In this document: one piece after another, positions 8,136-45,552 of the stretch | How the letters are laid out: each line of letters opens with the position of its first letter | Numbering within the stretch: position 1 is the first letter of the stretch | DNA from: Clostridium sp. | GTDB lineage: Bacteria > Bacillota > Clostridia > Lachnospirales > Lachnospiraceae | NCBI GenBank assembly: GCA_023664775.1 | Contig: JAMPEW010000005.1 | Location: forward strand, 42,204 to 89,943 | Direction: 5' to 3' | DNA length: 47,740 bases | Translations under genes and position numbers: made by a program | The notes under the pieces: model-generated | Databases searched by the model: none | What the model was told of the DNA's origin: nothing | The model's input: only the letters and a program-made list of their open reading frames with translations

Positions 8136-8252
8136 ATGCAGATGTTTAACTGGGGATTTTGTTGTGGTATGGATGACATTCCAATACAAACGGAATTTTA
8201 CGACAAGAATAATCCGGCAAGACAGATTTGGGTAACCTCCTGCGGCATTTAG
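8136..8252 (+). CDS. Small ORF of 38 codons, doubtful
   Basis: An ATG with GAAGGA about seven bases upstream opens MQMFNWGFCCGMDD... and ends at 8250-8252, just before the RBS of the Rpn gene. I recognise no family. It contains CC and acidic residues and no signal peptide. It may be a leader peptide, a remnant or chance. Confidence 0.25.
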   Translation: MQMFNWGFCCGMDDIPIQTEFYDKNNPARQIWVTSCGI

Positions 8253-8269
8253 TTAAAGGAGGAAACCAT

Positions 8270-9356
8270 ATGAAAAACAATGAGAAATCGAAACAAGACA
8301 TAAAACAAAAGCTGCTTACGTGGGAGCAGTGGCAGGAGCTTACAGGCGTACAGGCTGTGATATGGGAATACAGAGATACGGTGTTCCGTATGCTCCTCAG
8401 GGATAAGAGAAAGCTGCTTGCACTTTACAACGGCATAAACGGAACAGACTACGATAACCCTGACGATTTGGAGATTGTCACGCTTGAAAATGCCATTTAC
8501 ATGAGCTGTAAAAATGACGTTGCATGCGTCATAGATTTTACCCTTGACATGTACGAACAGCAGTCAACGGTAAACCCAAACATGCCATTTCGCTATCTGC
8601 GGTATGTTTCAAGGGTATTTGAAAAGCTTACGATATATGATAATATTTATTCAAGGAAATTAATTAAGCTTCCGACACCTAAGTTTATCGTATTTTATAA
8701 TGGAAGCGAGCCACAGCCTGAATATAGGGAATACAGGCTGTCAGACGCATATATAACAAAGACGGCAAAGGTAAGCCTTGAGCTTATTGTGACGCAGCTT
8801 AATATCAATGAGGGGTACAACAGCGAGTTGATGGAAAAGTGTCCTGACCTTTGGGAGTATATGCAGTATGTTTCAAAAATCAGGGAATATAATAAGGATA
8901 TGCCCCTTGAGGAAGCAGTGCCAAAGGCTGTTGATGAATGTATCAATGAGGGAATATTAAAGGAATTTCTTTTGTTAAATATATTGTGTCAAGTTTTCTA
9001 TGAAAACTTGACATGCAGCGTCAGCCCATTTGCTGAAAGCAAATTTTGAATGGGCTGACGTTCAAAGGGCGGAGGTAGTGAATATGAGTATATTTGAATA
9101 CGATGCGGAATTACATATGCAGATGGAGCGTGAGGAAGCTTTTGAGGACGGCAGGGAAGATGGAAAAACAAGAACGCTTATTACCCAAGCTTGCCGTAAG
9201 TTAAGAAAATCAAAAGAAGCAGATGTTATAGCCGAGGAGCTAGAGGAGGATATTGAGGTTATATCAGAAATATGTAAAGCGGCAGAATCCTATGCCCCTG
9301 AGTATAATGAGGAGCTTGTATATGAAGCCTATAAGAAACAGTATATGGTAGTTTAA
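8270..9356 (+). pseudogene. Rpn-family PD-(D/E)XK nuclease/putative transposase, interrupted by an 85-bp insertion
   Basis: The start ATG 8270 follows AAAGGAGG. The N-terminal part (WEYRDTVFRMLLRDKRKLL, LEIVTLENAIYMSCKNDVA, LDMYEQQSTVNPNMPFRYLRY, TPKFIVFYNGSEPQPEYRE) matches the Rpn recombination-promoting nuclease family; the ExQ in YEQQS sits where the nuclease core motif is expected. At codon AAT 8978-8980 the conserved continuation (F-L-x-x-N-R-A-E-V-V-N-M-S-I-F-E-Y-D) is broken, and it resumes at AGG 9066 as RAEVVNMSIFEYDAELHMQ. Removing 8981-9065 (85 bp) rejoins the frame exactly. As it stands, the first part ends at 9049 with foreign residues and the C-terminal part could start only at ATG 9084 behind GGAGG. 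Family members act in RecA-independent recombination; this copy is probably dead. Confidence 0.85.
8981..9065 (+). mobile_element. 85-bp double-hairpin element inserted in the Rpn gene (copy 1)
   Basis: Hairpin 1: a perfect 12-bp inverted repeat 8987-8998/9002-9013 around TAT. Hairpin 2: a stem of 10-12 bp (CGTCAGCCCA with TGGGCTGACG) capped by TTTGCT-GAA-AGCAAA at 9029-9043 and carrying a 7-nt bulge on its 3' side. The first 31 nt of its core (from 8984) are identical to the element at 44772-44851. There is no ORF, so it would be a non-autonomous or structural-RNA element. Its ends are set by restoration of the interrupted reading frame. No target-site duplication is evident. Confidence 0.75.
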
Positions 9357-18370: not shown

Positions 18371-18421
18371 TTATAAGAAAGTTCTTCGAACTTTCTTATA
18401 AGGCAGGATTAAAAATCCTGC
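18371..18421 (+). repeat. Bipartite palindromic repeat, copy 1
   Basis: Hairpin A is a perfect 14-bp stem TTATAAGAAAGTTC-TTC-GAACTTTCTTATAA (18371-18401); hairpin B is GCAGGATT-AAA-AATCCTGC (18403-18421). The same pair occurs in inverse orientation at 35412-35459. A third small hairpin, AGCGTC-GAA-GACGCT, follows at 18437-18451. No T-tract, so probably a REP-like element rather than a terminator. Confidence 0.7.
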
Positions 18422-18462
18422 TAGGATTCGAACTACAGCGTCGAAGACGCTTTGTTCTAAAG

Positions 18463-18527
18463 CTTGACATGTAACGTGTCATAGGACAAGGAGACTGCCT
18501 ATTTGAAAAGATGAAGCCAAATGGGCA
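18463..18527 (+). repeat. Diverged relative of the double-hairpin element
   Basis: CTTGACATGTAACG resembles CTTGACATGCAGCG of the element at 8981. A second hairpin TGCCTATTTG...CAAATGGGCA (18497-18527) stands where the element's second stem would be. As in the other copies, a purine-rich RBS (AAGGGGAG) and an ATG follow at once. Similarity is only partial. Confidence 0.35.
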
Positions 18528-44771: not shown

Positions 44772-44851
44772 TTGTGTCAAGTTTTCTATGAAAACTTGAC
44801 ATATAGCGTCGCCGCTTTTGCGAAGCAAAATTAGGATGCGGCGATGTTCAA
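44772..44851 (+). mobile_element. 80-bp double-hairpin element (copy 2)
   Basis: The first 31 nt equal those of the element in the Rpn gene (from 8984), including the perfect 12-bp hairpin 44775-44786/44790-44801. AGCGTC and the terminal GTTCAA are also shared. The second stem has other bases (CGTCGCCGC with GCGGCGATG) but the same fold: a GAA-capped top stem TTTTGC/GCAAAA (44816-44830) and a 7-nt 3' bulge. The RBS AAGGAGG of the next gene starts four bases after its end. Confidence 0.75.
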
Positions 44852-44868
44852 CATAAGGAGGTGAAAAA

Positions 44869-45552
44869 ATGAACTTAGGCATGGCGGACATAGCTTACAT
44901 TGCAAATCAGTGTTATGTAAACTCAAAGACAAATTCGGCAGAACAAAAGGAGGGTGTCAGTTTTAATTCTGTTTTAGCGGCAAAGGAAGCCCAAGGTACA
45001 GAATTGTCAAAGGTTGATGCATATACCGAATATTTAAGGGCAAGGTTTGGCAATGTGATGATTTCTTCCGTTGGCAAGGATCAAAAAAGCATGGATGCTT
45101 TGGGAGCACAAACCTTTGGAACAGGAAATGTCGTTATTGCACCAAATATTTTAAGGGAAATGGCAAATGACCCTGAAAAAGCAGCTTACTATGAAAAAAA
45201 GATACAGGAGCATTTTGATTCCATTCCTGAAACAAAAGCATTTATGGCATCAATCGGACATAGAATAACGTCCTGCGGTGTTGTTATTCATGCTGACGGA
45301 ACAGTTACATACTATTTATGTGGTGAAGAAACACCTGAAAAAAAGGCAAAGGTGGAGGCTGACAATAAGGCGAAAAGAGAGAAAAAAGAGAAACAACAAA
45401 AAGCCTCATTGGAGCACCTTAGAAAATTGCGGGAACAGCAACAGCTTATGATTGAAAAATATAACCACGAACAATTTTTTAAGGACACGGTTACGGTATA
45501 CGGCAGTACCTTTGCTGAAATATTTGAAAAAGGGTTTTATAACAAAAAATAA
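44869..45552 (+). CDS. Unknown protein, DUF6033-like
   Basis: 227 residues, no signal peptide. A polar N-terminal part is followed by VDAYTEYLRARFGNVMISSV and a core GTGNVVIAPNILREMANDPE, AAYYEKKIQEHFDSIPETKA and SCGVVIHADGTVTYYLCG, then a charged coiled coil (~160-205, KAKREKKEKQQKASLEHLRK). I recall this core as Lachnospiraceae family DUF6033; unverified. The next gene has the same order of parts (IPDALQKKMDADPAYAEEIY, then DENGDV and a Lys-rich coil), so the two are likely relatives in one operon. RBS AAGGAGG directly behind the double-hairpin element. Confidence 0.7.
   Translation: MNLGMADIAYIANQCYVNSKTNSAEQKEGVSFNSVLAAKEAQGTELSKVDAYTEYLRARFGNVMISSVGKDQKSMDALGAQTFGTGNVVIAPNILREMANDPEKAAYYEKKIQEHFDSIPETKAFMASIGHRITSCGVVIHADGTVTYYLCGEETPEKKAKVEADNKAKREKKEKQQKASLEHLRKLREQQQLMIEKYNHEQFFKDTVTVYGSTFAEIFEKGFYNKK

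Follow-up and report, generated by a model that had tools for sequence, protein, structure and literature searches.

We found that two short double-hairpin sequences in the window, the whole 47,740-nucleotide stretch of Lachnospiraceae DNA analysed here, belong to a family of mobile elements which in this genus lie nearly always just 5′ of Shine-Dalgarno (SD) motifs and whose stems covary between copies. The reading which best fits these observations, and towards which we lean, is that of a non-autonomous mobile element of approximately 80–150 nt with SD-directed insertion. The window lies on contig 55 of a 2.65 Mb draft genome of 60 contigs (G000). A first-pass annotation of the window had described two copies; that observation was confirmed as a whole, and the family is much larger than it had suggested.

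Copies in the window and evidence for mobility

Both copies were found where they had been described, at 8981–9065 and 44772–44851 on the forward strand. Their first 31 nt (TTGTGTCAAGTTTTCTATGAAAACTTGACAT) are the same and both end in GTTCAA (at 9065 and 44851), with a GGAGG 5 nt further on and an ATG 18 nt (copy 1) or 17 nt (copy 2) past the element end. Both are short forms consisting of hairpins H1 and H2. Copy 1 scores 65.2 bits at 8984–9065, with a net insertion of about 8981–9065 (85 bases). Its H1 (8987–9013), identified by folding and by an inverted-repeat search, has perfect 12-nt arms and a 3-nt loop, and its H2 (9019–9060) has 12-nt arms (CGTCAGCCCATT/AATGGGCTGACG), a GAA-capped inner stem and a 3′ bulge.

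Copy 1 interrupts an Rpn-like gene. In the ORF list one forward-strand frame (8228–9049) runs into the element, and a second (9084–9356), which begins at an internal ATG, represents the C-terminal part of the gene; before this ATG lies the native SD GGAGG (9071–9075), known from uninterrupted relatives. The claim that copy 1 splits an Rpn gene held as regards the split, with 13 distinct uninterrupted places of the gene among the examined loci of G000, G014, G043 and G042 and about 85 extra bases at the filled site, but the Rpn label is weak: TIGR01784 scored 24.6 bits on an intact paralogue, below its cut-off of 52.1 bits, the interrupted N-terminal part had no profile match and a credible Pfam match for the gene family was not found. 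In the uninterrupted relatives the internal SD is GGAGG in 11 and AGAGG in 2 (both in G043), and the internal ATG is kept in 13/13. PMC10327210 describes rpn genes in which an internal start yields a separate C-terminal protein, RpnS, and reports such a start also for a Clostridioides difficile rpn gene. By analogy with those genes, the internal ATG behind copy 1 is probably a real start site, and the frame at 9084–9356 would occupy an RpnS-like position. The Rpn-like gene is multicopy in G000 and G014, with close paralogues (window 8228–9356; loci L151, L152, L156, L157 and L158), and the conserved internal SD-ATG of this gene family fits Rpn-type genes-within-genes.

Copy 2 (44772–44851, 72.3 bits) has an H1 of the same sequence as copy 1 (44775–44801; fold and inverted-repeat search) and a folded H2, CGTCGCCGC/GCGGCGATG, at 44807–44846. 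It is followed on the same strand by a native SD, GGAGG (44857–44861), which is present in the element-free allele, and by a gene (44869–45552) encoding a DUF6033 protein (Pfam match to PF19498). At the corresponding site in G014 the leader and SD are the same, the element is absent and the downstream gene is lost. The DUF6033 gene has there been deleted between two AAAAAAT repeats, leaving an orphan SD (L180 about 1465–1490, G014:C16). A third sequence, at 18463, had been taken for a diverged relative and is not a member: with filters off it scored 20.2 bits (18371–18489) through the pairing of unrelated hairpins, and the genome scan gave nothing there at E up to 0.01. The region 18371–18489 is a cluster of other hairpins between two genes, outside the element family.

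The H1 pattern (26 bases, up to 3 mismatches) gave 29 matches in G000, which reduce to 25 distinct places since some palindromes are matched on each strand; a control with the pattern reversed gave 0 matches in this genome. We also sought further copies with a covariance model built from 15 copies (R1). At E up to 0.01 there were at least 67 matches in G000 and at least 43 in its close relative G014, many of the weak ones being the palindrome read on the opposite strand, while at ≥ 45 bits there were at least 38 and at least 21 copies respectively; copy numbers from the covariance-model genome scans are lower bounds. Matches at E up to 0.001 occurred in 9 of the 37 genus genomes: at least 52 in G000, 44 in G042, 40 in G014, 29 in each of G043 and G048, 26 in G021, 19 in G010, 2 in G050 and 1 in G049. 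None were found in the remaining 28 at this threshold. A full copy has the hairpins H1, M, I and H2, in this order, before the 3′ end GTTCAA. H1, M and I are each dispensable, and the parts that vary least are H2 and the 3′ end. Whole-hairpin differences are frequent, with H1 absent in some orthologues (for example L014/L168, which has H1 in G000 and lacks it in G014). The copies L001 and L169 contain an extra I-type hairpin: inner modules, like boxB in BOX elements, are able to multiply.

The element moves, as had been proposed, and both window copies are insertions, given the 13 uninterrupted relatives for copy 1 and the absence of copy 2 from G014. For 17 G000 sites, which include copy 2, we joined the two flanks and searched for them in G014, G043 and G042; the reading of empty alleles covered 30 loci of 54 search rows. 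A contiguous, base-level empty allele was present in at least one genome at 12 of the 17 sites and was not found at L013 (copy 2), L022, L146, L147 and L150. Among these five, L022 appears empty by coordinates alone and copy 2 is settled by the element-free G014 allele. Clean empty sites at orthologous or paralogous positions, a general mark of mobile elements, were thus observed. The right junction comes after GTTCAA or a closely similar sequence. The left end is less strict: of the 48 copies in which it is intact, 27 have a G at −2 and 30 have one at −1. Junction duplications at the 12 empty-allele sites vary from 0 to about 4 nt and are ambiguous, so that they give no clear enzymatic signature, and two sites, L003 and L142 (at 4155), lack a few bases of the empty allele. 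Head-to-tail copies occur, that is, tandem insertion: at L015 the tail of an older copy, ending in GTTCAA, is present in both G000 and G014, and a new copy behind it only in G000. At L218 in G042 there is a possible scar, GACGTTCCG before AGGATGGGAGG, at a site with a full copy in G000 and none in G014 and G043; the gene downstream is one which we take to be glgA.

Placement within and beyond the genus

We scored the placement of 90 copies of ≥ 45 bits from the genus (38 from G000, 21 from G014, 13 from G042 and 18 from others) with a fixed test, which required an ATG 12–22 nt downstream, an SD motif before it and an open frame of ≥ 60 codons. On the element's own strand 81 of the 90 copies passed, and outward from the other end on the opposite strand none did (0/90). 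By chance about 1% of positions pass (635 of 50,000 random positions; 186 of 16,772 random non-coding positions). Placement is therefore non-random, yet SD-distant copies exist in three other genera (see below). An ORF start lay within 45 nt of the element in 85 of the 90 copies, accompanied by an SD motif in 83, and the commonest spacing between element end and ATG was 16–18 nt (49/83). Of the nine failures, some combine an SD with a TTG start or with a frame that is short, and others are truncated or are inner tandem copies. In 32/90 copies an upstream frame of ≥ 50 codons stops no more than 30 nt from the element or slightly within it, and many copies therefore probably lie within operons.

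The first-pass annotation had suggested that the element targets or replaces translation-initiation regions. It is indeed located there, but replacement is contradicted by the native SD in the empty alleles: the element adds to the leader just 5′ of the SD. The idea that it supplies its own SD was ruled out, as the right flank matches the native empty allele. Conceivably the element end sits where the 3′ end of 16S rRNA would pair.

In a collection of 84,980 species the H1 pattern matched at least 101 stretches, yielding 80 loci, the titles of which are mostly Lachnospiraceae and also include Agathobacter sp., Eubacterium sp. MSJ-21 and Clostridiales or Clostridia. Eubacterium sp. MSJ-21 has at least two copies, in a record whose title does not mark it as metagenome-assembled. 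Element-bearing records also include metagenome-assembled genomes titled Bacteroides or Clostridium. The JAMPBO loci L235, L243, L267 and others, and the JAMPFU loci L240, L251 and L255, have flanks identical to those of loci in G048 and G014; their Bacteroides sp. and Clostridium sp. titles are probably wrong. For assemblies found by H1 alone a looser placement test was applied to the best 92 of 143 rows (approximately 46 bits or more), the other rows being weaker or the palindrome on the opposite strand. Twelve of the 92 were inner tandem copies and 3 lay at contig ends, which left 77 scorable copies from 22 assemblies. An SD and a start were found behind 74 of these 77 in this test, which about 15% of random positions also pass (3,008/20,000), and 72 of the 74 starts were 13–24 nt from the element. 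When 7 assemblies matching already-counted genomes of the genus were removed, 42/44 passed.

A second model, R2, found matches in 11 of 397 genomes of the family (11 of 334 genera) and, in a class-wide draw, in 2 of 391 genomes, both of the same family; both scans used stricter filters. The placement count for these other genera used 77 of 83 rows, those dropped again being weaker or the palindrome on the opposite strand. A divergent subfamily ending in CTCTCAA occurs in three other genera (G244, G312 and G383) and was SD-adjacent under a similar loose test in 11/11, 8/8 and 4/5 copies (23/24), with the start 13–23 nt away in 20 of the 24. Copies of the same architecture lie mostly away from SDs in G387 (0/8 SD-adjacent), G317 (1/8) and G229 (3/13), or 4/29 together, and placement is mixed in G152 (5/9) and in G259 (7/13, several misses being inner tandem copies). 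Because the copies in G387, G317 and G229 are mostly SD-distant, SD placement is a trait of some lineages of the family and not of all. Some copies in G229 and G317 (L362–L378) and in G387 (L382–L388) are inside longer repeated sequences or tandem arrays.

It is conceivable, although in our judgement unlikely, that insertion is near random and that purifying selection keeps only those copies just 5′ of an SD, where neither gene breaks. The related elements located elsewhere in G387, G317 and G229 would fit this, as would the nature of the downstream genes. Besides the Rpn-like pieces we scanned 18 of these, 15 of which had a Pfam match above the cut-off, and they are varied and largely housekeeping, including a class I tRNA synthetase, a GlgB-like enzyme, aconitase, MntP, a ZIP transporter, SpoIIR and a cytidylate kinase-like protein, so that insertions elsewhere there would hurt. 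However, the avoidance of damage alone should equally spare copies that lie between convergent genes, occupy long gaps or are reversed, whereas no reverse placement was seen among the 90 copies and just 186 of the 16,772 random non-coding positions pass the fixed test. BOX, RUP and SPRITE elements, which the authors of PMC3049150 regard as possibly parasitic, are according to that paper over-represented between convergent genes. The copy within the Rpn-like gene, moreover, sits exactly at an internal SD. We regard targeting as a better explanation than selection after looser insertion, though an unproven one.

Covariation and decay of the fold

The two-hairpin fold of the window copies is well below the energy of 200 shuffles (z = −6.4 for copy 1 and −5.7 for copy 2), and the 12-nt arms of H1 are perfect in both. 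The fold had been thought to be kept through paired changes, and such compensatory substitutions hold family-wide. Among 86 aligned copies 35 of 45 pairs show a two-sided change and 95.7% of cells pair, against only 34–48% when partners are slid by 1–3 columns, in an alignment which was fitted to a model structure drawn from G000 copies and so favours the covariation figures. A structure-free alignment of 32 copies from many assemblies (A5) gave two-sided changes in 9 of 28 pairs, with 96.5% of cells pairing; the 12 H1 pairs are invariant in it because these copies were found by the H1 pattern.

Copies shared at the same site behave differently from copies compared across sites. In 18 comparisons at shared sites there were 47 disrupting, 41 one-sided compatible and 19 two-sided compatible pair changes, and in the eight judged cleanest 25, 23 and 2 respectively; these are raw counts, given without a neutral expectation, to which rows lacking H1 add noise and in which three comparisons share copies. 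We read them as decay with at most weak constraint. Because pairing is kept from copy to copy yet is eroded at shared sites, mobility is probably what the fold is for.

This bears on the suggestion that the element is a cis-acting leader RNA which owes its spread to selection for a benefit to the downstream gene, be it insulation from upstream structure, processing by RNase, mRNA stability or a shared regulator. Sense orientation, a near-fixed distance to the start and covarying stems would all be expected of such an RNA. The SD was also more open in silico with the real element than with a shuffled one (means of 0.52 vs 0.46, p = 4e−5, 86 copies), but removing the element left its openness unchanged (0.52 vs 0.51, p = 0.32), and the element is predicted to fold on itself and leave the SD alone. 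Shared copies gather disrupting changes and lose hairpins, the scanned genes have no function in common and close relatives differ in their sites. We therefore think it improbable that benefit to the downstream gene accounts for the family.

Mobilisation and significance

We searched 15 carriers for Y1 transposases (PF01797) and reverse transcriptases (PF00078), leaving out G049, G050, G088 and G181, and found no mobiliser attributable to either family. PF01797 was not found in 12 of the 15, including the window's genome and all 7 same-genus carriers searched (of 9 in the genus), which have polymorphic copies; these are drafts, in which a single gene could be missed. PF00078 was not found in 10 of the 15, including the window's genome and G014, nor in 6 of the 7 same-genus carriers.

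The first-pass interpretation stood in part: mobility, a fold kept through paired changes and placement at initiation regions were upheld, and a REP/RAYT nature was not. The outcomes that it had named as refuting it, namely a lack of further copies, or further copies without covariation and placed at random, did not occur. An element of REP or PATE type moved by a Y1 transposase (RAYT or IS200/IS605) would account for the hairpins near both ends, the oriented insertion and the little or no clear target duplication, and Y1 genes do occur in 3 of the 15 carriers, but with PF01797 absent from the other 12 we consider it very improbable. Like REP sequences, the copies are palindromic multicopy repeats outside genes, with one copy inside a gene. 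REP/RAYT systems have a GTAG tetranucleotide at the hairpin foot; here the bases ahead of H2 are GTAG, GCAG, ATAG and others. A terminal inverted repeat was not found at the settings used, which would likewise suit an element moved by Y1; the only arms of ≥ 8 nt were those of H1 and H2 in copy 1 and of H1 in copy 2. The mobile structured RNA of the first-pass annotation, in the form of a bacterial SINE-like retroelement copied by reverse transcriptase, would explain the precise 3′ end, the variable 5′ junction and the placement in mRNA leaders, but it is the least credible of the alternatives, given the distribution of PF00078 and the H1-less copies at shared sites, which in our reading resemble hairpin deletions and not fresh 5′ truncations.

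Other identities were also rejected. Viral contigs, phages and plasmids gave no match, either in an exact search with the H1 pattern or in blastn with copy 1, so carriage on these was discarded. A known Rfam family was set aside: the window gave no covariance-model match at the gathering score, and five member loci gave none even at E up to 1. A promoter or terminator identity lacked any sense-strand match in the two window copies; the opposite strand of copy 1 had a single terminator-like match and a single promoter-like one, the latter at chance level. No description of the element or of SD-directed insertion was found in Rfam or among the papers listed in searches of the open-licence full-text literature, and among the matches listed for H1 sequence strings no title concerned bacterial repeats.

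The element can be compared to several known systems. BOX, RUP and SPRITE of Streptococcus pneumoniae are likewise small, modular, hairpin-forming, multicopy and gene-free, with optional inner modules, but belong to another bacterial family and are described in PMC3049150 as over-represented between convergent genes, whereas this element lies 5′ of SDs in the sense orientation. REP, BIME and REPIN sequences with their RAYTs are also short, multicopy, non-autonomous palindromes, for which recognition of a folded strand is plausible. Our element differs from them in its position at SDs, its two different hairpins, its fixed 3′ end and the lack of Y1 in 12 of 15 carriers. MITEs and the PATEs derived from IS200/IS605 are non-autonomous and mobile with clean empty sites as well, while for this element a terminal inverted repeat was not found, nor a partner transposase in the Y1 search, and the junction duplications are ambiguous, at 0 to about 4 nt. 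The main text of a 2024 review of prokaryotic MITEs contains 0 mentions of "ribosome binding", "Shine-Dalgarno" or "start codon". Structured RNAs in Rfam share covarying stem-loops in mRNA leaders and gave no match.

The element inserts with its 3′ end (GTTCAA or a close variant) a few bases 5′ of an SD and is sense to the gene behind. Under SD-directed insertion, the machinery would recognise the A-rich SD region in an oriented way. The SD could thus act as a safe-haven target, in which reading frames are spared and the native SD is still used. The paired stems may be recognition signals for mobility, because they covary between copies, yet disrupting changes accrue after fixation. Older copies lose whole hairpins, and newer ones also insert behind the GTTCAA of old ones. 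The mobiliser would work in trans or be lost by now, and the downstream gene may possibly be affected, for example through translational insulation or mRNA processing. Against SD-directed insertion we count the SD-distant relatives (G387, G317 and G229), the mixed placement in G152 and G259, the lack of a mobiliser in the Y1 and RT searches, the variable and ambiguous junction duplications and the 5 of 17 sites without a base-level empty allele. More tentatively, the ribosome-binding site itself might be the integration site, with machinery that is neither Y1 nor RT placing the folded pair of hairpins, always in one orientation, against the 5′ edge of the SD. Such machinery might read the SD region as DNA, or act when that region is exposed by mRNA or ribosomes. 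If so, this would be a new safe-haven strategy and a new mechanism of mobilisation.

Near gene ends, small palindromic repeats are commonly dismissed as junk. This element has time and again altered the leaders of many different genes, immediately 5′ of the SD. As filled and empty alleles exist in close relatives, its effect on translation and its mechanism of insertion are directly testable. Known safe havens for mobile DNA include tRNA genes, glmS and terminators, and ribosome-binding sites would join them if it is truly the SD that is targeted.
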